Origin: Sneathiella marina
Lineage (GTDB): Bacteria; Pseudomonadota; Alphaproteobacteria; Sneathiellales; Sneathiellaceae
DNA: 64,000 bases
Direction of reading: 5' to 3'
Assembly: GCF_023746535.1 (NCBI RefSeq)
Contig: NZ_CP098747.1
Span: forward strand, 1,370,364 to 1,434,363
Shown: positions 5,223 to 37,655 of the stretch, one piece after another
How positions within the stretch are numbered: the stretch's first letter is position 1
Layout of the letters: each line of letters opens with the position of its first letter
The notes under the pieces: model-generated
What the model saw: only the letters and a program-made list of their open reading frames with translations
What the model was told of the DNA's origin: nothing
Database searches by the model: none
Made by a program: the position numbers and the translations under genes

Positions 5223-6242
5223 ATGCGTTTAAAATCACTCCTCGGTGCGGGAATCCTTCTTGCAGCAACATCTATGATGACGGGGGTTTTGGCAGCTGAA
5301 ACCATGATATTCAGGATCGGCACCGGCGGCATCAGCGGCACATATTATCCGGTTGGCCAGGCAATTGCGACGATGATTTCCAACCCTCTTGCAAAATCTG
5401 ATTGCGGCACACTCCCTTGCGGCGTATCCGGATTACTCGCCGTCGGGCAGGCATCCAATGGATCTGTTGCAAATATTGCCGGTATTCGTTCCGGACAGAT
5501 AGAAAGCGGCTTCTCCCAATCCGACATTGCCCATTGGGCGCGAACGGGCACCGGCTTCTACATTGGTGACAGTCCGGACCAGAAAATTATGGCGATCGCG
5601 AGCCTTTATACGGAAACTATTCACCTGGCGGTCCGTCAGGATTCTGGAATCAAATCAATTTATGATTTGGCCGGTAAGCGGGTTTCCCTTGATGACCCCG
5701 GGTCCGGCACCCTTGTCGACGCACGGATTATTCTGAAGGCTTACGGGATTTCCGAAACGGACATGGATGTACAATATGTGAAGGCATCGGAAGCCATAAA
5801 AAAAATGAAGGCCGATAAGCTGGACGCTTTTTTCGTCATCGCAGGATTTCCCTCTAAAGCGATTTCCGATTTAAGCAACGACATTCAGATTTCCCTGATA
5901 AATATTGACGGGGCGGCAGCGTCGAGAATTACGCGGGAAAATGAGTTCTTCTCTGAGCAAACCATTCCTGCCGGAACCTATCGGAATGTAAGCCAGGTCA
6001 AGACACTGGGTGTCGGGGCCTTATGGATCGTAAATAAAAATGTCGATGCGGAACGGGCGTATAAAATCACCCGTAAATTCTGGGAAAGCCTGCCTGATTT
6101 TAAAAAGTCGGGAGGCCATCCCAAACTGTCAAAGATTTCTCTTGAAACGGCCTTCCAGTCAATGAGTGTGCCTTTGCATCCCGGCGCAAAAAAATATTAT
6201 GAGGAAAACGGGTTGCTGAACGAAAAGATGTTGCGAAATTGA
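5223..6242 (+). CDS. TAXI family TRAP-type solute-binding protein
   Basis: A 339-residue secreted binding protein. A classic signal peptide (MRLKSLLGAG then a hydrophobic core, cleaved after VLA near residue 24) precedes FRIGTGGISGTYYPVG, the characteristic TAXI-family opening. Downstream, SGQIESGFSQSD and LAGKRVSLDDPGSGT match the ligand-binding lobes. Two cysteines in SDCGTLPCG may form a disulfide. TAXI proteins normally feed a fused DctQM permease, but none is encoded here. Instead a membrane histidine kinase begins 10 bases downstream, so this protein probably works as a ligand sensor for the kinase. Ligand unknown. Confidence 0.87.
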   Translation: MRLKSLLGAGILLAATSMMTGVLAAETMIFRIGTGGISGTYYPVGQAIATMISNPLAKSDCGTLPCGVSGLLAVGQASNGSVANIAGIRSGQIESGFSQSDIAHWARTGTGFYIGDSPDQKIMAIASLYTETIHLAVRQDSGIKSIYDLAGKRVSLDDPGSGTLVDARIILKAYGISETDMDVQYVKASEAIKKMKADKLDAFFVIAGFPSKAISDLSNDIQISLINIDGAAASRITRENEFFSEQTIPAGTYRNVSQVKTLGVGALWIVNKNVDAERAYKITRKFWESLPDFKKSGGHPKLSKISLETAFQSMSVPLHPGAKKYYEENGLLNEKMLRN

Positions 6243-6252
6243 GGCCAGGCAA

Positions 6253-8067
6253 ATGATCAGAAATTGGCTGATGAAGCTCAACGATAAAATAGAATCAAAA
6301 AACATTCCTGAATGGAACAACGCCTATGTTGCAGGTATTTTTTGCCTGTCATTATTTGTGATTGCGACAATTACTTATGTGCAGGTTACGTTGTCAAAAA
6401 TCGAGGAATCCGTGCCTTTGCAGATTGTTGCCCAGGAGCAAGCCGTTGACGAAATAATTGACCAGTTCGCGGTTGCCAACAACGCACTTGTCCTTGCCCA
6501 GCTTGCAGAAGGGGTGAAGCGCAGAGGGTATATTGACCTCGCGCGGGAAAAGATCCAGCAAGTTCACGAGGCATTGGAAAAAGAACGTATCCTGTTCAGC
6601 TTTGATAACCTTATCGGTACAGCAGCAATTTATGCTGTTATTCAGCCGGCGACCTATGATGTCCAGAATTGGCTTGCGCAGGGGATCAGTGGGTTACCGC
6701 CCGAAGCCTCCATCGTGCTTGAAGCGGCTTCCGTTCGATCGCGAACAGCCATTGATGAAGCTGAAAAATTACAAAAACAGACATCGGAAATGGCCTCAAG
6801 TCTTTTGGCGGCCCAGGCGGAACGGATCAACGCGTTTCGAGGCATCATGATCCTCGTTTTATTTTTGCTGGCAGGGCTCGCGGCTGTGCTGACTTACTAT
6901 ATCTACAACAGATGGCTGGCCAGCCGTGAACTGGAAAGAAGCGAGCTCAAGCATCGACGTATATATGAAAATGCGACTGAAGGAATTTTTCAAGTTCATC
7001 TCAACGGTACTTTTATCGATACCAATCCTGCTATGGCTACCATGCTCGGATATGGGTCGTCGCATGAAATGGTGGAAGAGGTTAAATCCTTTGTCACTGA
7101 AATTTACCTGGATACAGAGGTTGCCGAAAAGCATTTGATGCTGTTGACCAAGGGTCAGTATCTTATCGACGAAATCTATCAGTGGCGACGCCGGGACGGG
7201 ACGCTCATTTGGGGGGCACTCAATGCGCATGCAGTCTATGATAAAAAAGGCACATTGATGCATGTTGAGGGAACCCTGACAGATATGAATGCCCGGGTGC
7301 GCGCAGAATTGAATTTGCGTAAAGCCAAGGAACTGGCGGAGTTGGCCAACCGCGCCAAGTCTGAATTCCTGGCAAATATGAGCCATGAACTTCGAACCCC
7401 GCTGAACGCTGTTATCGGGTTCTCGGAAATCCTTCAATCAGAGGCCTTCGGACCTTTGGGCCATGCAAATTACAAGGATTACTCCAATGATATTCATGCG
7501 GCCGGAAAGCATTTGCTGGATGTGATCAACGATGTCCTTGATGTGGCCAAGATTGAGGCCGGTCAGCTTACTCTGACGGAAAGCAATATGGAGCTGTCGG
7601 CGACGGTTGCCTCCTGTATCCGTATGTTGTCGGTGCGGGCATTCAATGCCGGTATCAAACTAACCTCCGATATACCCGGCGATTTACCGGGCTTTCTGGG
7701 GGACGAAACCCGAATCAAACAGATACTTGTCAATATTGCGTCGAACGCGATCAAATTTACGGACAAGGGTGGATCGGTCACGGTTACCGCCCAGATGCGG
7801 GATGATGGCGGCATATCCCTGCGTGTCACGGATACGGGAATTGGCATAGCAAAGAAAGATATCCCGCGTGTTCTTGACCGGTTCGGACAGGTTCAAACCA
7901 CCTATGCCCGTAACAACGAGGGGACGGGCCTTGGGCTGACGCTGGTCCAGATGCTGGTCGAAGTGCATGGCGGTGAGTTTACTCTAACAAGCGAGGTGGA
8001 AGTCGGCACAGTATGCTCTATTCATTTCCCATCTGATCGCACTGTGAAAATGGCCGCAGCTGTCTAG
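6253..8067 (+). CDS. membrane PAS-domain sensor histidine kinase
   Basis: A 604-residue inner-membrane kinase. Two membrane segments (about 27-46 and 197-217) flank a roughly 150-residue periplasmic helical region. A PAS domain covers about 232-350. The HisKA dimerisation helix has SHELRTPL with phospho-acceptor His378, and the ATP-binding domain shows N494 in NIASNAIKF, DTGIGI (527-532) and GTGLGL (557-562). There is no receiver domain and no response regulator gene nearby, so the partner is elsewhere. It starts 10 bases after a TAXI binding protein with a GAGG ribosome site, implying co-expression and sensing of the ligand-loaded TAXI protein. Confidence 0.9.
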   Translation: MIRNWLMKLNDKIESKNIPEWNNAYVAGIFCLSLFVIATITYVQVTLSKIEESVPLQIVAQEQAVDEIIDQFAVANNALVLAQLAEGVKRRGYIDLAREKIQQVHEALEKERILFSFDNLIGTAAIYAVIQPATYDVQNWLAQGISGLPPEASIVLEAASVRSRTAIDEAEKLQKQTSEMASSLLAAQAERINAFRGIMILVLFLLAGLAAVLTYYIYNRWLASRELERSELKHRRIYENATEGIFQVHLNGTFIDTNPAMATMLGYGSSHEMVEEVKSFVTEIYLDTEVAEKHLMLLTKGQYLIDEIYQWRRRDGTLIWGALNAHAVYDKKGTLMHVEGTLTDMNARVRAELNLRKAKELAELANRAKSEFLANMSHELRTPLNAVIGFSEILQSEAFGPLGHANYKDYSNDIHAAGKHLLDVINDVLDVAKIEAGQLTLTESNMELSATVASCIRMLSVRAFNAGIKLTSDIPGDLPGFLGDETRIKQILVNIASNAIKFTDKGGSVTVTAQMRDDGGISLRVTDTGIGIAKKDIPRVLDRFGQVQTTYARNNEGTGLGLTLVQMLVEVHGGEFTLTSEVEVGTVCSIHFPSDRTVKMAAAV

Positions 8068-26024: not shown

Positions 26025-26594
26025 ATGGAAATAGAAGACACAGCCATAGCGGATGTAAAGATTCTAAGCCCGAAAAAATTCGGGGATCATCGCGGGTTTT
26101 TCTCCGAGGTCTGGAATGAACGGACATTGGCGGATGCCGGACTGGACCTTCGGTTTGTACAGGACAATCATGCTTTGAGCGCTGAGGCAGGCACATTGCG
26201 GGGGTTGCATTATCAGCTGGACCCGGCGGCGCAGGGCAAGCTGGTCCGTGTTGTTCGCGGTGCTGTCCTGGATGTGGCGGTGGATATCCGGGCCGGATCC
26301 CCGACTTTTGGCCAGCATGTGGCGGTTGAGCTGTCGGCGGATAACTGGCGGCAGCTTTGGGTGCCGCGCGGATTTGCCCATGGATACTGCACTTTGCAGC
26401 CGAACACTGAACTGGTTTACAAGGTCACGGATTACTATAGCCCGGACCATGATTGCGGTATTTTCTGGAATGACCCTGCCTTGGGGATCAAGTGGCCTGT
26501 GGCACCGGAAAAGGCGATCCTGTCCGAAAAAGATACGGTTTTGCCCCGGCTGCAAGATCAAACAAGATTATTCGATTTCGAGGGAAAGACATGA
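26025..26594 (+). CDS. rfbC: dTDP-4-dehydrorhamnose 3,5-epimerase
   Basis: A 189-residue cupin enzyme, third step of dTDP-L-rhamnose synthesis. [21 protein letters not shown] holds the catalytic His, [17 protein letters not shown] is the core strand, and FAHGYCTLQ with [15 protein letters not shown] completes the active site. It begins the rfbCBD operon; its stop overlaps the rfbB start (ATGA). The nucleotide sugar feeds surface polysaccharide or LPS. Confidence 0.93.
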
Positions 26595-27646
26595 CGGTTT
26601 TTGTAACAGGTGGTGCCGGATTTATCGGCTCGGCGTTGGCCCGCGATCTGGTCAGTCAGGGTGAACAGGATGTGGTGATTATCGACAAGCTGACATATGC
26701 CGGCAGTGTCGAGAGCCTGAAACCCGTCAGCAACAGCCCGCACTATCATTTCTCTAAGACGGATATTTGCGACCGCGACGCCATTGGCGCGCTGTTCGCA
26801 AAATACAAACCCACGGCGGTGTATCATCTGGCCGCAGAATCCCATGTGGACCGGTCCATTGACGGCCCGGCGGATTTTGTCCAGACCAACCTGGTCGGCA
26901 CCTTCACCATGCTGGATGCGGCATATCATTACTGGCGCGACCTGCCCGAAGAGGGTCAGCAGAATTTCCGTTTCCTGCATGTCTCGACCGATGAGGTTTA
27001 CGGGGAACTGGGCGCAACAGGCGAGTTTTCGGAAACCAGTGCCTATGACCCCAACTCTCCGTATTCGGCCAGCAAGGCGGGATCAGACCATCTGGCGCGC
27101 GCCTGGCACCGAACCTATGGATTACCGGTGCTGGTCACCAATTGCTCCAACAATTATGGCCCCTATCAGTTTCCCGAAAAGCTGTTGCCGGTTGTCATCC
27201 TGAATGCCTTGCAGGGCAAGGAGCTGCCGGTTTATGGCAAGGGCGAGAATATCCGGGACTGGCTGTATGTGGAGGATCACGCGAGCGCCCTGCAACAGGT
27301 GGTGGCGGAGGGTGTTGTTGGCGAGACCTATATGATCGGCGGCCGGGCCGAGCAAACCAATATCCACATGGTCCGGGCCATTTGCCGGATCATGGACAGG
27401 AAATTCCCGGATAAAGCCCCCCATGAGGACCTGATCCGCTATGTAACAGACCGTCCGGGGCATGACGCCCGCTATGCCGTCGACTGCACGAAAATAGAGA
27501 AGGAACTGGGCTGGGCGCAATCGCTCAACCTGGAGACAGGGCTTGAAAAGACTGTCGACTGGTACCTGGACAATCTCGACTGGGTCCGGGCCGTGTCCGA
27601 AGATTACACGCAGGAACGCTTGGGACTGGGCACTGAAAAAACATGA
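26591..27646 (+). CDS. rfbB: dTDP-glucose 4,6-dehydratase
   Basis: A 351-residue short-chain-dehydrogenase-type enzyme, second step of the dTDP-rhamnose pathway. The NAD-binding motif [13 protein letters not shown] is at the N-terminus. HVSTDEVYG and the catalytic [10 protein letters not shown] (Tyr and Lys) are near 133-165, and [16 protein letters not shown] and [14 protein letters not shown]-like sequence follow. The start at 26591 overlaps rfbC by four bases; the longer frame upstream lies inside rfbC. It overlaps rfbD by four bases. Confidence 0.94.
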
Positions 27647-28488
27647 AATTTCTTGTAACAGGGGCGGGCGGGCAGGTCGGCAGCGCTCTTGGCCTTATGG
27701 GACCGCTTAACGGGCATGAGGTTATCCCCCTCGACCGGCAAACACTGGATATCACCGGCACAGCAGAGGTGCGCGCGGCGATATCCAATTATAACCCGGA
27801 CGCCGTTATCAATACCGCCGCTTATACAGCCGTTGATAAAGCCCAAAGCGAGCCCGAACTGGCCCTGGCGATCAATGCGGCGGGCCCTGAAAATCTTGCG
27901 CTGGCCTGCGCGGATCTGGATATCCCGCTGTTGCATATCTCCACGGATTTTGTCTTCGATGGCAAGAAATCCGAGCCGTATTCAGAAACAGACCCCATCG
28001 GCCCGCTCAGTGTCTATGGCAGCAGCAAGGCGGAGGGTGAAGCGCGGGTTGCGGCCATTGGCGGAAAATTCCTGATCCTCCGGACCGCCTGGGTTTTCGG
28101 TGGTGAGCAGAATTTCGTCGCGACCATGCTGCGCCTTGGCGAGACCATGGAGGAGCTGAATATCGTCGATGATCAACGCGGCGGCCCGACGGCCAGCACT
28201 GATATTGCGGCGGCGCTCCTGAGCATGGCGGAGCAGGCAAACGCACCAGCATTTAGTGACTGGGGCATTTATCATTACAGCGGCGCACCGTCCTTAACCT
28301 GGTTCGGATTTGCGCAAGCGATCTTTGCCGGGCGCGACAAACCGGTCTTGCATCCCATTCCGACAAAAGACTATCCAACACCCGCAGCGCGCCCCAAAAA
28401 CTCCGTGCTCGATTGTTCAAAGATCAAACGGGTATTTGATATTGACCAGCCGGACTGGCGCACGGCATTATCTCAACTGCTGACATAA
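27643..28488 (+). CDS. rfbD: dTDP-4-dehydrorhamnose reductase
   Basis: A 281-residue NADPH-dependent reductase that completes dTDP-L-rhamnose. The Rossmann motif is [29 protein letters not shown] and the catalytic YGSSKAEGE are near 105-130, and [17 protein letters not shown] follows. It ends the overlapping rfbCBD run. No rfbA (glucose-1-phosphate thymidylyltransferase) lies in the window, so that step must be encoded elsewhere. Confidence 0.93.
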
Positions 28489-28510: not shown

Positions 28511-28945
28511 ATGGCCCGGAGTGACTTTTCGTTTTTTTATGATTTTCGGGTGCGCTATTCGGAAATCGACGGGCAAGGCGTCGTCTTTAACGCCCATTAT
28601 CTGACCTATTTCGATACAACCATCACGGAATATTTCCGTGAACTGGGGTTTGATTACCGAGCGTATGTGGCCCAGACCGGGCAGGATTTCCATCTGGTCA
28701 AGTCGTTGGTGAATTACGAAAAACCGATCCTGTTTGATGCGGATATCCAGGTTGGCTGTCGCGTATCCAACATTGGGTGGACCTCCATTACCTTCCTGCT
28801 GGAGATTTTTGGCAAAGGAGAGGACAGCCGGTATTGCACTGGGGAGATCATCTGGGTCAACACCGATCAGGCCACCCACAAAACAGCGCCCGTCAATGAT
28901 GAAATCCGGGCACTCTTCGGCCATTCCGAGCTTGCCGCAACCTGA
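28511..28945 (+). CDS. acyl-CoA thioesterase (4-hydroxybenzoyl-CoA thioesterase fold)
   Basis: A 144-residue hot-dog fold thioesterase. The motif RVRYSEIDGQGVVFNAHYLTYFD has the catalytic Asp and the family's HxxYxxY pattern, followed by TEYFRELGFDY. The gene sits 23 bases before an acyl-CoA synthetase gene and 22 bases after rfbD on the same strand. Pairing of a thioesterase with a synthetase suggests handling of the same acyl group; the acyl chain is unknown. Confidence 0.85.
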   Translation: MARSDFSFFYDFRVRYSEIDGQGVVFNAHYLTYFDTTITEYFRELGFDYRAYVAQTGQDFHLVKSLVNYEKPILFDADIQVGCRVSNIGWTSITFLLEIFGKGEDSRYCTGEIIWVNTDQATHKTAPVNDEIRALFGHSELAAT

Positions 28946-28968: not shown

Positions 28969-30513
28969 ATGCCGTTTGCCGGACCAGATTTATCGACACC
29001 CGTTCAACTCTCCACATTGCTGCAAGCCGGTGTCGATGCTACGCCCGATGACGTCGCGATCGTCTCCGCGGAAATGAGCTGGACATGGCGTGAATTACAG
29101 TCTGTGGTGGATAACGTGGCGGCAAATCTTGTGTTAAAGGGATTGAGAACAGGGGATCGATTGGCCTGTCTCATGCCAAACCGAACGCATTTACTGATCC
29201 TGTATCTTGCCAGTTTTAAAGCGGGATTTGTGCTGGTGCCGCTTAATTATCGCTATACGCCGAGCGAGATTGACTATGCGCTGAATGTGAGCGGGGCCTC
29301 CTTGCTGGTGTATCACTCAGAGCGTGAGACTGATATTGCCGCCTCAAACTCTGTGCCCGATTTGCCACTGGGCCTTATTCCCTACCGCCCGTTAAAGGAT
29401 ACGGACGCCGGTTTCGAGGATTTATATTCTGAACCGGACAGCGCGGTTGTTTTCGATAAGTTTGACAAGACGGATCCGGCGGCCATCTTTTTTACATCCG
29501 GCAGCACCGGCAAACCCAAGGGCGTTACCCATAGCCATCAAAGTCTGGGCTGGATGTTCGCCGCTGTGGTCGGGGCCTGCGGACTAACCGCGAACGATGT
29601 CCTGCTTCCCGGATCCTCCATGTCCCATCTGGGCGGGTTCATGTTTTCCTTTGCCGCCCTGTCCGAGGGCGGTCGGGTAGTGATTGCCCGGGTTTATGAC
29701 GCCACCGAAATACTCCCTCTCATGCGGCAGGAAAAACCGACCGTGCTTTGCATGTTACCGGCCACATTGATGGGACTGGTCCGTGACAAGTCCGCAAAAG
29801 AGGAAGACTTCAAATCCATCCGCCTCTGCCGCTGTGGCAGTGACAAGGTGCCCGAGGAGCTGGAAATCGAGTTTGAGGCGCTGACAGGCTATAAGGTTGA
29901 TGAAGGGTACGGCATGTCGGAAGTCGGGCTGGCAGCCCTTAACCCGCCAGAAGGCCTGATTAAAATGGGGTCTATCGGCACGGCCAATCCCGGATATGAG
30001 ATGTCGATCCGCGATGATCAGGGTGTCGAGGTGATGAACGGCACCATTGGCAATCTGTGGATGAAAACACCCAGCCTGATGACGGGCTATTGGAATAACC
30101 CCGAAGAAACAGACAATACTGTCCATGATGGCTGGATTGACAGCGGCGATATCATGCGGGCGGATGAGCAGGACTATCTATGGTTCTGCGGCCGGAAGAA
30201 ACAAATCATCGTTCATGATGGATCCAATATCTTCCCGCAGGAAGTGGAAGAGGCCCTGATGGCGCATGACGCGGTATCCGCCGCCGGGGTGATCGGCTTA
30301 CATGATCTTGTGCATGGTGAAAATGTCCGGGCCTATGTGGTGTTGCGGCCCGATCACGCCTTGCCGTCGGCCTTGGAACTGATCGAGTTTGCCCGGACCC
30401 GTATCGGCTATAAGGCACCGGAGGAAATTATATTCCTGTCCGAAATGCCGATAAATCCAACAGGCAAAATCGACCGCGTCCGCCTGAAAACCATGGCCGC
30501 CGCCCATCATTAA
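28969..30513 (+). CDS. class I adenylate-forming enzyme (acyl-CoA synthetase)
   Basis: A 514-residue cytoplasmic AMP-forming acyl-CoA ligase. FFTSGSTGKPKGVTH (about 173-187) is the ATP-binding loop, EGYGMSEVGL (about 312-322) the A5 motif, DGWIDSGDI the A7 region, and NPTGKIDRVRL near the end carries the A10 lysine. HGENVRAYVVLRPD lies in the hinge domain. It shares long identical blocks with the synthetase at 36087-37655, so the two are paralogues. It follows a thioesterase gene. Substrate cannot be read; fatty or aromatic acids are likely. Confidence 0.88.
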   Translation: MPFAGPDLSTPVQLSTLLQAGVDATPDDVAIVSAEMSWTWRELQSVVDNVAANLVLKGLRTGDRLACLMPNRTHLLILYLASFKAGFVLVPLNYRYTPSEIDYALNVSGASLLVYHSERETDIAASNSVPDLPLGLIPYRPLKDTDAGFEDLYSEPDSAVVFDKFDKTDPAAIFFTSGSTGKPKGVTHSHQSLGWMFAAVVGACGLTANDVLLPGSSMSHLGGFMFSFAALSEGGRVVIARVYDATEILPLMRQEKPTVLCMLPATLMGLVRDKSAKEEDFKSIRLCRCGSDKVPEELEIEFEALTGYKVDEGYGMSEVGLAALNPPEGLIKMGSIGTANPGYEMSIRDDQGVEVMNGTIGNLWMKTPSLMTGYWNNPEETDNTVHDGWIDSGDIMRADEQDYLWFCGRKKQIIVHDGSNIFPQEVEEALMAHDAVSAAGVIGLHDLVHGENVRAYVVLRPDHALPSALELIEFARTRIGYKAPEEIIFLSEMPINPTGKIDRVRLKTMAAAHH

Positions 30514-30542: not shown

Positions 30543-31793
30543 TCAGCCTTGTTTTTTCATATGGATATCTATGGATCCCGTGCAGCTGCCATCCTCTGCA
30601 ATTAGGGAGAGCCGCTTGTCAGGCCGATCGAGGTCAAACCGTTCGGTCCATTTCCAGTTTCGGCCGCCGGAGGGAACATCGAACTTTAGGTCCAGATAGT
30701 CATCATCCATTTCTCCGGTTACATATAATGCTTTGCTATTTGTATAATATGTTTCCGATATCTCGCCGTTTTTCAACTGGAGAGTAAAATTCCAGTCGGC
30801 TGCTTTTGAACACCAGCTTGAATTTGATGATGTCGAGACATAGGACGCCGAAACAGTCCATTGACCCTTGGCGGAAAAGCTGTTTTTGGACGTGGTGGCT
30901 GTCGGGCTGGAAGCGGTATGAGAGCCGCCGCCTTGCTTTTTCATGACAATGTCGATCACACCGATACAGTTGGTCGCCGTGCTGGTTTCAGGTTCCGCAG
31001 TCAAGCGTACTTGCGGTTTATCAAGCTTGAGCCGTTCGGTGAAATTCCAGTTATTGCCGCCGGAGGGAACGGCAAAGGACAACTCCGAGACGTCCGAAGA
31101 ATGCTCTCCGGTGACGTTTAGCTGGACGCCATCACTCCAGTATGTTTCCGAAATACCCCCGCGTTTGGAATAGTCCAGCTGGAAATCCCAGCTGCGTTGT
31201 TTCGAACACAGGGCTTGCGACAAGGCGGTGGGAGAATATGTCGCGGAGACATTCCAGATTCCCGCAGGATTAAATTCACCATCAGCTGTCGGCGTTGCCG
31301 CCGCTGTTGCGGCAGCGGCGGCTTTCGCCGGTGCCGGTGGCGGTGTGGCAGGCTGGCCCATCTGCACTTTAGTTGCCATATAATTCAGGCTTGACCCAAT
31401 GCTGTTTTCCAGCTCGCGGACCCAGGCGTTGTAACTGCGATGAATTCGGGCGCCCTGGCTCAATAGCTCGCGGCTCGACACATAGTTGATGGCATATTGC
31501 CGGTTATTGAAAACAACATCGACAACGGCCTGATGCTTGCCTCGAACGTCAAGGGTCCCGCGCACGACACCGGGCTCCAGTTCCTGCATTTTCCATTTCT
31601 TCGATTTACCGGCAGCAATGATGCCTTCACCAATGACCGGCAGCGGTGTTTCGTTTAGACTCGCAGGTATGGCGATTTCGCTCGGGACGTAAATCGGTTG
31701 TATGCGGGGCTGGCAGGCGCTTACGACCATGACCGCCAGAACGAGGAAGATAAGGCGAGGGAGGGAATTCACAATATAGTTCCTCAGTAACAA
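30543..31793 (-). CDS. lipoprotein with two Cys-pair repeat domains
   Basis: A 416-residue envelope lipoprotein. The signal peptide ends in VVSAC, with lipid-bearing Cys27 followed by QPRIQP; with no Asp at +2 it should sort to the outer membrane. Residues about 55-140 form a domain (PGVVRGTLDVRGKHQAVVDV, IHRSYNAWV) that I recall from many uncharacterised bacterial lipoproteins. After an Ala/Pro linker come two repeats (174-287, 306-415), each starting GxWxVSAxY, holding VPSGGxNWxxTER, and ending IxIxMKKQ, with a cysteine pair 80 and 76 residues apart. The three-repeat protein at 31999-33753 is its paralogue. Function unknown. Confidence 0.8.
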   Translation of the reverse strand: MLLRNYIVNSLPRLIFLVLAVMVVSACQPRIQPIYVPSEIAIPASLNETPLPVIGEGIIAAGKSKKWKMQELEPGVVRGTLDVRGKHQAVVDVVFNNRQYAINYVSSRELLSQGARIHRSYNAWVRELENSIGSSLNYMATKVQMGQPATPPPAPAKAAAAATAAATPTADGEFNPAGIWNVSATYSPTALSQALCSKQRSWDFQLDYSKRGGISETYWSDGVQLNVTGEHSSDVSELSFAVPSGGNNWNFTERLKLDKPQVRLTAEPETSTATNCIGVIDIVMKKQGGGSHTASSPTATTSKNSFSAKGQWTVSASYVSTSSNSSWCSKAADWNFTLQLKNGEISETYYTNSKALYVTGEMDDDYLDLKFDVPSGGRNWKWTERFDLDRPDKRLSLIAEDGSCTGSIDIHMKKQG

Positions 31794-31807
31794 ACGGATT
31801 GATTTCT

Positions 31808-31832
31808 AATTACCGCAGAAAGATTAACAGAC
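31808..31832 (-). promoter_or_regulatory. 25-base box shared upstream of both repeat lipoprotein genes
   Basis: The plus-strand sequence AATTACCGCAGAAAGATTAAC (running on to 31832) matches 33790-33814 in 21 of 25 positions. The boxes lie 15 and 37 bases before the respective starts. This could be a shared promoter or operator element, or simply a remnant of gene duplication. Confidence 0.35.
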
Positions 31833-31998
31833 CATGTCACAAGACTGGAAGCGCAGCCTAAATATTAGTGTTTCAGCAAACAAAAAAGCAACGCTTTTGC
31901 AACAGATGCCGTGAAATTCGATTTAGTATTCAAGGGACCCTGCGCCTTTGTCTTTGAGGAACGCTCTCAATATTTCCGGCGACCTCAAGAATTATCCC

Positions 31999-33753
31999 TC
32001 ATTGGCGTTTATCCATACTTACTTTGAGCTCTCCGCTGCAGGCCCGCCAAACATCACTAATAGAATAGGATTTTGTCGTAAAAACAGTCTTGCCCTTAGT
32101 CAACAGCAGCGGCTTTTTTGATTGCCAGTCACTGCCGCCCTTTGGCATGTCGAAGGACATCTGGACGCCACCTTTGGCCGGTTTAGCCGTTACATAAAGG
32201 GCGTAGGTATCATTCCAAATGGTTTCCGATTGCAGGCTGGATGTTACCAGCAGGTCAAAGTTCCATTGGATATCTGATGGACAGTATGAATCGTTCCCTT
32301 CCTGAAAAATATACTTTGCCGACACCGCCCACTTGCCGACGGGTGAAAAGGAATTGGGAGATTTCCGTTCCAATATCTTGTTTAAGGCTGTGACGGCAGC
32401 TTCTGCATATTTGCTTTCAGGATGGCCCTTCAGAAAAAGCCGCAATTCCTGTTCGTCATTATTGTCCTTGATAGCCAGCCAGGCGGCTTTTGCCGCCGCA
32501 TCCTGATTGTCGACGGGAATAGTTGTCTCTCTGGTAATGGCTGCCGGTTGCTTTTTCAAATTGACCGTAAGTGTACCTCTACAATCAGAAGAGGACGAGG
32601 TGTCCGGGAGGGCAATAAAGGTTTTCTCTTTTTCATCAAGTTTGAAATGTTCCGTCCAATTCCAGTCGGAGCCACCATTTGGAACGTCAAAGTTCATCTC
32701 GATTTTCTCATCCGTAAACAGCCCGGAAACATAAATCGGTGATCGATCCTTCCAAGCTGTATGGGAAATTATACCTTTTTGTAGAGCCAGATCGAATTCC
32801 CACTTATTTGATTTTCTACAAAAACTCTGCCTCTGCGAACTTGCCTCATAAATAGCTGTAACTCTCCAGTTACCGGTGGGATAAAAAGGGGGCCGCGGTG
32901 TTGTTGATGCAATTGTGGTTTTTTGGTTGGGGTCATATTGCTTTCTCATAATAATATCTATGACGCCGAGGCAATTTGACGGCGAGCTGGTTTTAGGCTC
33001 AGAGGTCAATCTGACTTGCGGTTTGTCCAGGGCAAGTTGCCGTGTCCATTGCCAATTGTTGCCGCCTTGGGGAACTGAGAAATTTAACTCCGAATGGTCA
33101 TCGGAATGCTCCCCGCTGATATTCAGCTGGACCCCATCACTCCAATAAGTATGTGAAATATCACCGCGCTTGCTGTAGTCCAGCTTGAAATTCCAATTTC
33201 GCTGTTTTGGGCAAAAGGACGCGCTCATGACCGTGGGCGTGTAAGTTGCATAGACATCCCAGATGCCCGCCGGATCGAAAGCGGTTTTGCTGGGGGCCGG
33301 GGCCACCGGCGTTCCAGAATTCTGAGGCGTGTTTTGGGCGGCTTGTTGCCGGGAGGAAATATAGTTCAGGTTGGAGCTAATGCCGCTTTCCAACTGACGT
33401 ACCCAGGTATTATAGCTGCGATGGATGCGGGCGCCCTGGCTTAACAAGTTGCGGCTGGAGACGTAGTTTATGGTATAGGCCTTGTTGGTATAAACCACGT
33501 CGACAACGGCCTGGTGTTTATTCTGGACATCCAATGTCCCGCGGATCACGCCGGGTTCAATCTCCTTCATTTTCCAGCTTTTCGCCGCCCCGGCATCGAG
33601 AATTCCATCCCGGATAACCGAGAGCGGTGCCGTCTCCAGCCCCGGCGGCAGGGCGACGGAGCTGGGAACATAAATCGGCTGGATGCGGGGCTGGCAGGCG
33701 CTGATGAAAATAACAAACAAAATAAGGGAGGCGAGGCGGAACGGGATTTTCAC
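31999..33753 (-). CDS. lipoprotein with three Cys-pair repeat domains
   Basis: A 584-residue paralogue of the neighbouring lipoprotein, with lipobox FISAC and lipid-bearing Cys20 followed by the same QPRIQPIYVPS. The N-terminal domain (about 47-133) carries EPGVIRGTLDVQNKHQAVVD. Three repeats lie at 159-272, 290-402 and 469-584, with cysteine pairs 181/261, 312/391 and 491/572, so spacing is 79-81. Between repeats two and three is a helical segment (about 418-463, WLAIKDNNDEQELRLFLKGH) resembling the helical modules found in caspase-like and TPR-associated proteins. Conserved spacing suggests each repeat is a disulfide-closed beta domain in the periplasm. Function unknown. Confidence 0.8.
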   Translation of the reverse strand: MKIPFRLASLILFVIFISACQPRIQPIYVPSSVALPPGLETAPLSVIRDGILDAGAAKSWKMKEIEPGVIRGTLDVQNKHQAVVDVVYTNKAYTINYVSSRNLLSQGARIHRSYNTWVRQLESGISSNLNYISSRQQAAQNTPQNSGTPVAPAPSKTAFDPAGIWDVYATYTPTVMSASFCPKQRNWNFKLDYSKRGDISHTYWSDGVQLNISGEHSDDHSELNFSVPQGGNNWQWTRQLALDKPQVRLTSEPKTSSPSNCLGVIDIIMRKQYDPNQKTTIASTTPRPPFYPTGNWRVTAIYEASSQRQSFCRKSNKWEFDLALQKGIISHTAWKDRSPIYVSGLFTDEKIEMNFDVPNGGSDWNWTEHFKLDEKEKTFIALPDTSSSSDCRGTLTVNLKKQPAAITRETTIPVDNQDAAAKAAWLAIKDNNDEQELRLFLKGHPESKYAEAAVTALNKILERKSPNSFSPVGKWAVSAKYIFQEGNDSYCPSDIQWNFDLLVTSSLQSETIWNDTYALYVTAKPAKGGVQMSFDMPKGGSDWQSKKPLLLTKGKTVFTTKSYSISDVWRACSGELKVSMDKRQ

Positions 33754-33789: not shown

Positions 33790-33814
33790 AACTACCGTAG
33801 AAGGATTAACAAAC
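33790..33814 (-). promoter_or_regulatory. second copy of the 25-base upstream box
   Basis: This is the copy upstream of the three-repeat lipoprotein, matching the box at 31808-31832 in 21 of 25 positions. A/T-rich sequence follows toward 33900. No promoter can be pinned down. Confidence 0.35.
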
Positions 33815-33954
33815 TATTTTTACGCGTGAATAAAACAATCCAGAGTTTATTCTCAATACACGCAGCAGGGCAACGCATTTTTTATTTATCTGAATATTTT
33901 ATTAATAGCGCCGTTTACTCGAAAATTCCTATGAATGAAACGCAGCCTGAGGTC

Positions 33955-34554
33955 CTAGGTGATATCGGTCGGGGTATTTGACAGAATGTAGACGCCCACG
34001 GCCATCAGCAGGAAGGGGAGAATTTTTGGCGCGATTTTTGTCAGGACCTGGCGAAGTTTCGAGTAGGAAACAGCCCATTGCCCGGCAAAAATGATTAGGG
34101 CCGCCGTCACCAGAACACTGACGGACATCCACGGGACGAGGCTGGTTTTGGTATCCGCCAGAAGCGGGGCCAGCACACCGATGGAATCCCAGCTATGGGT
34201 GAGCATGATGACGGCAACGGCCCAGATCGTCCCTTTGCTTTTGTCCAGATTGACGGGGGTATCGTCGGCGGGCGACTGTTTTTTGGTGATCAACTGATAC
34301 AATTCATAGGCCCCGATACTAAGCGGGACCAGTCCGATCAGCGGAATATACCGGGTCGGGATCAGCTGGGCGCTCTGGGCGAGGACGAGGGCGATTACCA
34401 GCATCATGACAACAGCAAGCATAAAACCGATGCGGACTTGCACCGCGCCGTATTTGGGATGCACTGACAATGTCACCAGCAGGAAAAGATTATCTATGCT
34501 AGTGGAGAGAAATGCCATGAAGCTGACAGAAACGGCCAGAAAGATTTCGTCCAA
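33955..34554 (-). CDS. CadD-type cadmium resistance/LysE-superfamily membrane protein
   Basis: A 199-residue inner-membrane protein with about six membrane segments. VSFMAFLSTSIDNLFLLVTL near the N-terminus matches the [ST]NxDD/IDNL motif of the cadmium resistance transporter family, and the second half repeats it loosely as IMLTHSWDSIGVLAPLLA, giving the usual internal pseudo-symmetry. Family members export divalent metals or cationic compounds. No metal-responsive regulator is adjacent, so substrate is uncertain. Confidence 0.65.
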   Translation of the reverse strand: MDEIFLAVSVSFMAFLSTSIDNLFLLVTLSVHPKYGAVQVRIGFMLAVVMMLVIALVLAQSAQLIPTRYIPLIGLVPLSIGAYELYQLITKKQSPADDTPVNLDKSKGTIWAVAVIMLTHSWDSIGVLAPLLADTKTSLVPWMSVSVLVTAALIIFAGQWAVSYSKLRQVLTKIAPKILPFLLMAVGVYILSNTPTDIT

Positions 34555-34603: not shown

Positions 34604-35596
34604 CTAATCCTGCCGTTCGGCTTGACCCAAATGAAACAGGCAATCCCCGCGCACGACCCGCGCCGGTACCCGCTTCGCCAAAATCACACCATCAGTATCG
34701 AAAAACAGCTCGACCGGGGGCCGGCCTGGGGTCTCGGTTTGATGGATCAGGGCCGCGGGCTGTCCGGCTTTGACATCCTCACCGGGATCTGCCAACGGCT
34801 CGAACACCCCCGCTTCCGTCGCAAACACGGACCCTTCCTCCAGAAACGCCCGGGAGCGCCCGGCTGCGGCCTGTGGTGCGGAGGCGAGCGCGCCGATACA
34901 TTTGAGAGAGCGTTTCAGCCCGTCCCCGGCGTCACGGGCCAACCCCTTGGTGACGGCGCCACCACCGGCGAGCTCCGTGAGAATACTGCACACCCCTTTG
35001 CGAAACGCCGCTGCCGACGAGAAACCGCCGATTTCATCCCGTTCGAAATACAACGTGTAGGGCAGGCCAAAGGCCTTTTCAACTGCCTGTTTTTCAGCCA
35101 GATGGGGGTCTTCGCCATACAGGGAAATCAGCAACGTGGGCTTGTACAGCAAAGAGCTGCCGCCGGAATGCAGGTCAAACAGATAGTCAGCCCGTTCCAG
35201 CAGGGTCTCCTCGATATAATGGGCAATTTGCTGTGTTGGTGTCCCCGTCGGGCTGCCGGGAAAGGAGCGATTGAGGTTGCCCTGATCGAGGGGCGAGGTA
35301 CGCAAACCCGCCTCTGCTGCCGGGAAGTTGGACATGGGCAGGAAAATCAACTGCCCCGTTACCTCTTCAACCGGCAAAGTCCGGATCATTTCAGACAGGA
35401 TGACCTGGCCCTCATATTCGTCGCCATGATTACCTGCCATCAACAATACCGTCGGACCTGCACCATTTTTAATACTGGCAATGGGGATCGGGATAAAGCC
35501 ATAGGCAGAGCGATGAACGGAATGCAGCAACTGAAGGTAGCCCTGCTGAACGCCGTCAGCATCGAAATCTATTGTACTGGTTATAAGAGAGGACAT
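34604..35596 (-). CDS. succinylglutamate desuccinylase/aspartoacylase family protein, DoeB-like
   Basis: A 330-residue zinc-dependent deacylase. The zinc ligands are visible in GNHGDEYEGQV (His, Glu) and FDLHSGGSSL (His); LTELAGGGAV holds the likely catalytic Glu. SPLDQGNLNRSFPGSPTGTPT is very close to the pattern of N-acetyl-diaminobutyrate deacetylase DoeB of ectoine breakdown. None of the usual doe neighbours (doeA, doeC, doeD, a TRAP ectoine transporter) is present, so DoeB function is only a possibility. It lies alone on the minus strand. Confidence 0.8.
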   Translation of the reverse strand: MSSLITSTIDFDADGVQQGYLQLLHSVHRSAYGFIPIPIASIKNGAGPTVLLMAGNHGDEYEGQVILSEMIRTLPVEEVTGQLIFLPMSNFPAAEAGLRTSPLDQGNLNRSFPGSPTGTPTQQIAHYIEETLLERADYLFDLHSGGSSLLYKPTLLISLYGEDPHLAEKQAVEKAFGLPYTLYFERDEIGGFSSAAAFRKGVCSILTELAGGGAVTKGLARDAGDGLKRSLKCIGALASAPQAAAGRSRAFLEEGSVFATEAGVFEPLADPGEDVKAGQPAALIHQTETPGRPPVELFFDTDGVILAKRVPARVVRGDCLFHLGQAERQD

Positions 35597-36086: not shown

Positions 36087-37655
36087 ATGCCAATCACCGG
36101 ACCCAAACTGGAAAAACCGGTTAATTTCCAGAATATTTTTCAGTCCAGCCTGCAAATAAAACCCGATGAGATTGCGTTGGTGTCCCTGCGGAATAGATTG
36201 ACATGGCGCGAGCTGGAAACAAAGAGTGATACATTGGCGCGCAGCCTGCTCGCCGTTGGCTTGGTTCCAGGTGATCGTGTCGCTTCCCTGATGCCCAATC
36301 GATGGGAGCTTGTGATCCTGTATCTTGCCTGTCTGAAATCGGGATTGGTTGCGACCCCACTTAATTATCGGTATATGGCGCCGGAAATTGATCATGCGCT
36401 GGACGTGAGCGGCGCCAGGATTTTAATTGCCCATGCGGAGCGAGAGGCGGATCTGGCTGAATCCAACCTAGTGACGTCACTACCGTTTGGGGTAATTGGA
36501 TATGCGGCTGAAGACCATCGCGAGCCAAATCTGGAACAAATGATCGAGACCAGCCCGGCAAATATTGACCTTCCGGCAATTGATATTTCGGCGCCGCTGG
36601 CAATCTTTTTTACCTCCGGCAGTACGGGCAAGCCGAAAGGCGTGATCCATACTGTGGAAACCTTTAGCTGGATGTGTTCAAGTCTTGTGAGTGCGGTGGA
36701 AATCCGCTCCGATGATGTGGTGCTTCCCGGATCCTCCATCTCCCATGTGGGCGGTTTTATGTGGTTCTTTGCCTGTTTGTCCCTCGGCACACAGCTCATC
36801 GTCGCGCGATCCTTCGACGGTGACGAAATGCTGCCAATTCTGCGCGATTTCAAGCCAACGATTTTATCCATGATCCCGGCGGCCTTGTTTGAGCTGATCC
36901 GCGATCGTCACGGTATCCATGACGATTTCGCGTCCCTGCGCCTTTGCGTTTCCGGCGGTGACAAGATTTCCAGCGTGCTTGAACATGAATTTATGGAAAA
37001 AGCCGGTATCATCGTCTCGGAACTATTTGGCATGACGGAAATCGGGTGTTCGCATTTCAATCATGACAAATCGCTGCATCACTTGGGTTCAGTCGGGACT
37101 GTTGCCGATGGGTTTGAGGTAATCCTGCGCGATGATGAGGATAAGGAAGCTGCCTTGGGCGAGCCGGGGCGGCTGTGGGTGCGGGCGAACTGCACAACAG
37201 CCGGCTACTGGAACAATGAGCAAGCCACCAATGAAGCCTATGATGACGGATGGTTTGATACGGGCGATATCATGAAGCTTGATCAGGATGGATATTATTG
37301 GTTCTGCGGCCGCAAGAAACAGATCATCGTTCATAACGGATCCAATATCTGCCCGCAGGAAGTCGAGGAGGCGCTGCAGGGTCATGCAGCGGTCGAGCAT
37401 GCGGGCGTTGTTGGCATCCATGATCTGGTGCATGGCGAAAATGTCATTGCCTATATTACACTGCAGGCGGAGGCGGCAATGCCCTCTCTTGCGGATATTA
37501 TTGCGTTTAGTAAAAAACGGGTGGGCTATAAGGCACCGGAAGAAATCGTTATTCTCGATGAAATGCCGTTTAACGCGACGGGGAAAGTTGACCGTGTTAC
37601 CCTGAAGAAGCACGCCGAAGAGGCGCATCGCGTCGACGTCGATGTAACAGCATGA
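36087..37655 (+). CDS. class I adenylate-forming enzyme (acyl-CoA synthetase), second paralogue
   Basis: A 522-residue AMP-forming acyl-CoA ligase. FFTSGSTGKPKGVIH (about 172-186) is the ATP loop, ELFGMTEIGCSH the A5 region, DGWFDTGDI the A7 motif, and NATGKVDRVTL near the end has the A10 lysine. It shares PNR, LNYRY, FCGRKKQIIVH and GIHDLVHGENV blocks with the enzyme at 28969-30513, marking a paralogue pair. Its stop overlaps the start of a DMT transporter (ATGA), so import or export of the acid or its product is likely coupled. Confidence 0.88.
   Translation: MPITGPKLEKPVNFQNIFQSSLQIKPDEIALVSLRNRLTWRELETKSDTLARSLLAVGLVPGDRVASLMPNRWELVILYLACLKSGLVATPLNYRYMAPEIDHALDVSGARILIAHAEREADLAESNLVTSLPFGVIGYAAEDHREPNLEQMIETSPANIDLPAIDISAPLAIFFTSGSTGKPKGVIHTVETFSWMCSSLVSAVEIRSDDVVLPGSSISHVGGFMWFFACLSLGTQLIVARSFDGDEMLPILRDFKPTILSMIPAALFELIRDRHGIHDDFASLRLCVSGGDKISSVLEHEFMEKAGIIVSELFGMTEIGCSHFNHDKSLHHLGSVGTVADGFEVILRDDEDKEAALGEPGRLWVRANCTTAGYWNNEQATNEAYDDGWFDTGDIMKLDQDGYYWFCGRKKQIIVHNGSNICPQEVEEALQGHAAVEHAGVVGIHDLVHGENVIAYITLQAEAAMPSLADIIAFSKKRVGYKAPEEIVILDEMPFNATGKVDRVTLKKHAEEAHRVDVDVTA

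Follow-up and report, generated by a model that had tools for sequence, protein, structure and literature searches.

Two adjacent genes on the reverse strand of Sneathiella marina contig NZ_CP098747.1 (positions 1,370,364 to 1,434,363, a stretch of 64,000 nucleotides referred to here as the window) encode paralogous lipoproteins, P0001 and P0002 (genes 1 and 2), in which a predicted barrel repeat, seen here only in Sneathiella, is attached to a known, poorly understood lipoprotein family, ApeA. We consider it slightly below an even chance (about 0.45) that the pair are outer-membrane lipoproteins, derived from ApeA, that handle lipids or glycolipids. This reading draws on the observed ApeA homology, repeat, cysteines, genomic site and changes in copy number, together with two predicted folds, and from these we infer the localisation, the disulfide and the binding.

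The ApeA-type N-terminal domain

Both genes had been read as lipoprotein genes in an earlier prediction made from the DNA sequence (the original prediction), and their open reading frames were as given there: the two proteins have a common N-domain and lipobox-like sequences (VSAC in gene 1 and ISAC in gene 2, read by eye), each followed by the identical sequence QPRIQPIYVPS. By sequence comparison, the N-domain of both proteins belongs to the family of ApeA, a lipoprotein encoded in aryl-polyene (APE) gene clusters. Our N-domain profile matched E. coli CFT073 ApeA (C_RS05650, c1204; assigned by gene order, as the first gene in the APE cluster) at 99.9% in hhalign, with an E-value of 3.6e-31 and 31% identity over 108 columns, and at 116.9 bits in HMMER. 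PMC8253772 describes E. coli ApeA as a predicted lipoprotein of the APE cluster and reports that the apeA deletion kept pigmentation and yielded immature APE carboxylic acids, with the main APE-lipid peak lost. ApeA-type proteins gave no model above cut-off in Pfam (16 and 5 proteins) or NCBIfam (3 proteins), and C_RS05650 (L248:3860-4249) carries the annotation "hypothetical protein" even though its relatives occur in many APE clusters.

The window genome (4.07 Mb, a single contig) has a third paralogue, a stand-alone ApeA lipoprotein (G000:C1:1345480; L069:7454-7891) directly ahead of APE-type genes. Pfam recognised Ketoacyl-synt_2, Acyltransferase, AMP-binding, ApeI-like and glycosyltransferase/lipid A acyltransferase domains in this cluster, which presumably also includes a LolA-like gene (without a Pfam row) and an MMPL-like gene. 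Stand-alone ApeA-type lipoproteins of ~135 residues were found in 15 of 24 Sneathiella genomes, and in all 15 they adjoin a gene of the APE ketosynthase/chain-length-factor type. Across 385 genomes of the class, the N-domain matched 21, of which 18 lie outside Sneathiella; an APE ketosynthase gene was located within ~1.5 kb of the match at 10 of these 18 loci, which include one weak locus (L101, E 5.7e-4) that is probably a chance match. A contig collection yielded 366 N-domain relatives. In 65 of the best 80, Vibrio, Photobacterium, Shewanella and Pantoea records among them, four or more of six APE genes lie nearby, a count biased toward APE-linked members as an APE-linked query was used. In one alphaproteobacterial metagenome-assembled genome, two ApeA-type open reading frames (L144:4462-5055 and 5851-6417) stand close together at the head of an APE cluster. 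The window pair sits outside the APE cluster, beside rmlCBD, and only the third paralogue is inside it; we therefore call the pair ApeA-derived rather than ApeA itself.

Structures were modelled as single domains (one repeat and the N-domain). The N-domain model (pLDDT 95.9) has a predicted BamC-N/KA1-like fold: its top Foldseek row was the BamC N-domain (E 3.9e-3, probability 1.00), and VIA-align gave Z-scores of 8.9 (2laf) and 8.7 (2yh6) for BamC and up to 9.9 for KA1-type rows. A literature search linking BamC with the KA1 domain found no paper. By analogy with BamC, the pair could instead face the periplasm and assist outer-membrane protein assembly as scaffold or accessory lipoproteins, with the barrels acting as protein–protein modules. 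The leading BamC rows speak for such a scaffold, but a Pfam scan of 16 N-domains returned no BamC family row at E ≤ 1, the closest sequence relatives are APE-linked ApeA proteins, and KA1-type rows score as high as BamC or higher; we regard this role as improbable.

Genes 1 and 2 are 68% identical in the N-domain, 68% in the first repeats and 37% in the second repeats, and this drop indicates that the C-terminal part diverged faster or was replaced. Blocks of 28 bases upstream of the two genes share 23 of 28 bases, a score that 0 of 500 base shuffles reached, so the duplication included some upstream DNA; the block of gene 2 falls beyond the span covered by the original prediction. The true start of gene 1 is probably the GTG at 31772 and not the TTG at 31793: the GTG follows a GAGGA-like site, leaves 19 residues ahead of the lipobox cysteine in both proteins and matches the GTG start of gene 2. 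Searches of the pair against Pfam, NCBIfam, PHROGs and PDB sequences gave no row or chance-level rows only, and a scan of the contig collection with full-length gene 1 was negative. Among plasmid records, 17 (10 of them Rahnella) matched P0002, none covering more than 80% of the query, and the 10 matches listed covered residues 11-129, the N-domain, only. No publication on Sneathiella repeat lipoproteins was found by title in a literature search limited to Sneathiella lipoproteins and apeA.

The predicted barrel repeat, its cysteine pair and the helical segment

An iterated profile delimited repeats of ~113 residues, two in gene 1 and three in gene 2, with limits within three residues of those predicted originally; the five window repeats seeded this profile, and their own E-values are thus partly set by construction. 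The profile found 20 repeats in eight Sneathiella genomes, the window genome included, a count that leaves out a broken copy in G003. Since the seven other genomes have the repeat intact, sharing 29-50% identity with repeat 2 of gene 1, it is not a chance resemblance. In the class-wide search it matched 2 of 385 genomes, both Sneathiella; that sample held five Sneathiella genomes, so the repeat occurred in 0 of 380 genomes outside the genus. Having no sequence family in Pfam, NCBIfam, PHROGs or PDB sequences, the repeat is a domain seen here only in Sneathiella for which no existing family model was found, in agreement with the original prediction, which had not recognised it.

Nine residues are invariant in all 20 repeats (G7, W9, Y15, C25, W31, F33, P71, C101 and G103, in the numbering of gene 1 repeat 2). 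The cysteine pair, treated as a fixed feature of the domain in the original prediction, is therefore conserved in homologues; its predicted spacing of 76-81 residues agrees with the values measured in the window (80, 76, 80, 79 and 81), and the range across the counted repeats is 75-81. Beyond the repeat pairs, the 11 proteins or fragments checked contain only the lipobox cysteine and, in two proteins, one signal-peptide cysteine. This near absence of other cysteines argues for an intradomain disulfide; of the disulfide-closed domain originally proposed, the conserved pair is observed and the bond itself is putative.

Proteins carry one, two or three copies, and the expected multiplication of the domain was thus borne out. 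The repeat alignment comprised 18 rows, as two G018 copies were dropped (one near-identical and one identical to G022 copies). In the repeat tree, which has several long branches and leaves 9 of its 16 inner branches open, repeats group by repeat type and not by protein: G016 has three types in one protein, G018 and G022 have two of these, and in G008 they are split over two genes.

Gene 2 additionally contains, between its second and third repeats, a helical segment, one of ten such segments aligned, which gene 1 lacks. This motif of ~45 residues (W...F...A..RL) lies ahead of the first barrel in 8 of 10 cases and between barrels in 2 of 10. At E ≤ 0.01, its profile has matches in 49 of 385 class genomes, one of them the window genome. 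The Peptidase_C14 caspase domain was found in all six helical-motif proteins scanned, out of 29 listed, and in neither P0001 nor P0002 at E ≤ 10. On these matches, the insert is a separate, widespread module of alphaproteobacterial caspase-like proteins. The original parts list had correctly included an inserted helical segment; it missed this caspase association and the ApeA identity of the N-domain.

Some of the caspase-like proteins (L187-L215) have, by eye, a Gly-x-Trp-type stretch with cysteines after the helical motif. Such stretches, and the frequency of the motif in caspase-domain proteins, would suit an origin of the barrels as sensor or ligand modules like the C-termini of these proteins, moved together with the helical linker onto an ApeA lipoprotein. 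Sequence similarity was undetectable, however: the best of 29 tails reached 2.1% in hhalign, and reversed-tail controls reached up to 1.9%. The iterated caspase-tail profile also failed, gathering unrelated proteins (some ABC-type ATPase-like by eye), and was not trusted. A class search with one caspase tail turned up few convincing relatives: it matched 27 of 367 genomes at E ≤ 0.1, four of them at E ≤ 0.001, including the query's own. We consider this origin quite improbable.

AlphaFold2, run on the 18 repeats, predicted eight beta strands (pLDDT 89.4, pTM 0.81), consistent with the all-beta domain originally proposed. VIA-align placed the model closest to the TbpB C-lobe (Z 6.5, rmsd 3.5, 106 aligned), with NHBA (Z 5.7) and HpuA (Z 4.8) also among its rows, and gave similar scores for de novo designed beta-barrels (6.3, 5.8 and 5.6). 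The predicted arrangement is an eight-stranded barrel, to which VIA-align assigns no family; the VIA and Foldseek lists do not cover all folds, and an unlisted family is not thereby excluded. GxW, a motif of lipocalin barrels, opens strand 1 in all 20 repeats; among the 50 Foldseek rows shown, lipocalins came only at E-values of 0.066 or higher, with TM under 0.4.

The TbpB, NHBA and HpuA rows raise the alternative of surface-exposed lipoproteins exported by a Slam/type XI secretion system (T11SS), in which the barrels would serve as translocation and ligand-binding modules. Slam cargo proteins are likewise lipoproteins with one or two eight-stranded barrels, as described in PMC5449769 and PMC12282271. 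Designed barrels score like Slam cargo, however, which means that the structural match carries little weight, and family searches gave no sequence match. SlipAM (PF04575) was found in 0 of 24 Sneathiella genomes versus 35 of 289 class genomes (29 above cut-off); 14 control genomes gave 0 positives in both SlipAM searches, and the class-wide run served as the positive control. With no SlipAM found in the 24 Sneathiella genomes, a Slam-type surface adhesin is less likely than ApeA-derived lipid handling, and we consider it very improbable. The adhesion module tentatively suggested in the original prediction is not supported: nothing found pointed to host or surface binding.

The genomic site

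Of the 24 Sneathiella genomes, 9 carry repeat proteins (G000, which is the window genome, G001, G003, G008, G013, G016, G018, G021 and G022). All eight repeat loci outside the window have at least one window flank and five have both, the flanks compared being rmlCBD with the thioesterase on one side and the deacylase, mostly with the Cad-family transporter, on the other. At the same site, G010 is empty, its ligase stop and Cad gene being only 6 bases apart; in G002 the deacylase adjoins the thioesterase; G014 has other genes after the thioesterase; the entire module is missing from G005 and G012; and in G020 both contigs end at the site. Frames are open in 7 of the 9 carriers, the G003 copy being broken (L068:8158-8427) and the G001 copy cut by a contig end; the repeat gene of G013 begins at a contig end. 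The patchy presence, the broken copy and the vacant sites would fit an insertion hotspot holding accessory genes that are neutral or in decay and serve no present function, but nine invariant residues, both cysteines among them, and open frames in most carriers make this very doubtful.

Features of the window, with gene 1 and gene 2 parts grouped under their genes
Feature	Position	Strand	Basis or remark
Lipoprotein gene 1 (P0001)	30543..31793	-	416 codons; ApeA-type N-domain and 2 barrel repeats
Signal peptide of gene 1, lipobox VSAC	31716..31772	-	Sequence, by eye
ApeA-type N-domain of gene 1 (Cys27 to 142)	31368..31715	-	
Repeat 1 of gene 1 (residues 172-288; Cys196, Cys276)	30930..31280	-	Profile
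Repeat 2 of gene 1 (residues 304-416; Cys328, Cys404)	30546..30884	-	Profile; copy modelled by AlphaFold2
28-base block upstream of gene 1, common to gene 2	31808..31835	-	
Lipoprotein gene 2 (P0002)	31999..33753	-	584 codons; GTG start; ApeA-type N-domain and 3 barrel repeats
ApeA-type N-domain of gene 2 (Cys20 to 135)	33349..33696	-	68% identity to gene 1 N-domain
Repeat 1 of gene 2 (residues 157-273)	32935..33285	-	68% identity to gene 1 repeat 1
Repeat 2 of gene 2 (residues 288-403)	32545..32892	-	37% identity to gene 1 repeat 2
Helical caspase-associated motif of gene 2 (residues 416-464)	32362..32508	-	
Repeat 3 of gene 2 (residues 467-584)	32002..32355	-	Profile
28-base block upstream of gene 2, common to gene 1	33790..33817	-	
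Conserved left flank, dTDP-rhamnose genes rmlC, rmlB, rmlD	26025..28488	+	Pfam, synteny
Left neighbour, 4HBT thioesterase	28511-28945	+	Pfam, synteny
Left neighbour, AMP-binding acyl ligase	28969-30513	+	Pfam, synteny
Conserved right flank, Cad-family transporter	33955-34554	-	
Conserved right flank, AstE/AspA-family deacylase	34604-35596	-	

The module is bracketed by two AMP-binding acyl ligases, the one in the table and a second at 36087-37655, whose copies come and go in relatives. The deacylase resembles DoeB, far under the DoeB cut-off (251.9 versus 402.7 bits). Close copies of it (≥69%) are present in 12 other Sneathiella genomes. The RmlD proteins most similar to that of the window come from these same 12 genomes, which include all eight other repeat-bearing ones.

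Proposed role and comparison with known systems

In the mechanism we favour, an ApeA gene would have been duplicated to give the pair, which would have gained small antiparallel beta-barrels of eight strands at the C-terminus, attached in most relatives through the helical linker motif. Under the classical Lol +2 rule, the residue at +2 decides the destination of a lipoprotein, and the glutamine at this position would send both proteins to the outer membrane. In a barrel of meander topology, the two loops that carry the cysteines, beta1-beta2 (C25) and beta7-beta8 (C101), would lie at the same end, next to the seam between the first and last strands, and a disulfide between them would thus clamp the barrel shut. 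The N-domain could act at the outer membrane in the assembly or localisation of an aryl lipid or glycolipid, as suggested in the literature for ApeA, and the tandem barrels could bind the lipid or its sugar head group; these two steps are the weakest. An envelope lipid modified with sugar or acyl groups would be in keeping with the neighbouring rml, thioesterase and acyl-ligase genes.

Several points weigh against such lipid handling. Ligand binding by the barrels is putative, and their interior may be solid and offer no pocket. The predicted fold match of the N-domain is common to unrelated KA1 proteins, and Foldseek returned no row at E ≤ 0.001 for either the N-domain or the repeat model. 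In the six genomes that have both on the same contig (G000, G001, G003, G018, G021 and G022), the repeat genes lie 50-60 kb from the stand-alone ApeA gene. Finally, 23 of the 24 Sneathiella genomes have an RmlD homologue and only 9 have the repeats, and the neighbourhood may therefore be just a site that tolerates insertions.

A further-reaching version is unlikely, in our estimate: ApeA could have become a modular lipid- or glycolipid-binding array, in which genus-restricted, disulfide-clamped barrels were added, lost, split and reshuffled, and species would differ in their barrel sets and ligand specificities. The parts of the two proteins are now largely identified, and the function of the barrels remains inferred. 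The fusions provide a second setting for the ApeA domain, along with a predicted fold for it, and the repeat makes up a small domain family that matched no existing model. Culturable marine bacteria that naturally carry one, two or three barrels could be used to test the role of the ApeA domain in outer-membrane lipid assembly.

Among known systems, the Slam/T11SS surface lipoproteins (TbpB, NHBA, HpuA, fHbp) resemble the pair in their lipid anchor and in eight-stranded barrels, predicted in the pair, which are sometimes repeated, but they differ in that structural Z-scores stay below 8, no SlipAM was found in the 24 Sneathiella genomes and no beta handle domain was recognised in the pair. With alphaproteobacterial caspase-like proteins, P0002 shares the helical motif; the window pair has no caspase domain, and the motif is placed ahead of or between barrels. 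BamC is a binding partner of BamD and contains another, similar domain; the predicted N-domain fold is like its N-terminal domain and KA1-type domains (VIA Z 8.7-9.9), whereas the sequence has no match to the BamC family. ApeA itself is like the pair in N-domain homology, lipobox and the IHxNYNxW motif, with a stand-alone homologue beside APE genes in the same genome; but ApeA has ~130 residues and stops after the N-domain, whereas in the Sneathiella repeat proteins, encoded at another locus, it is continued by one to three barrels and in many cases the helical motif.

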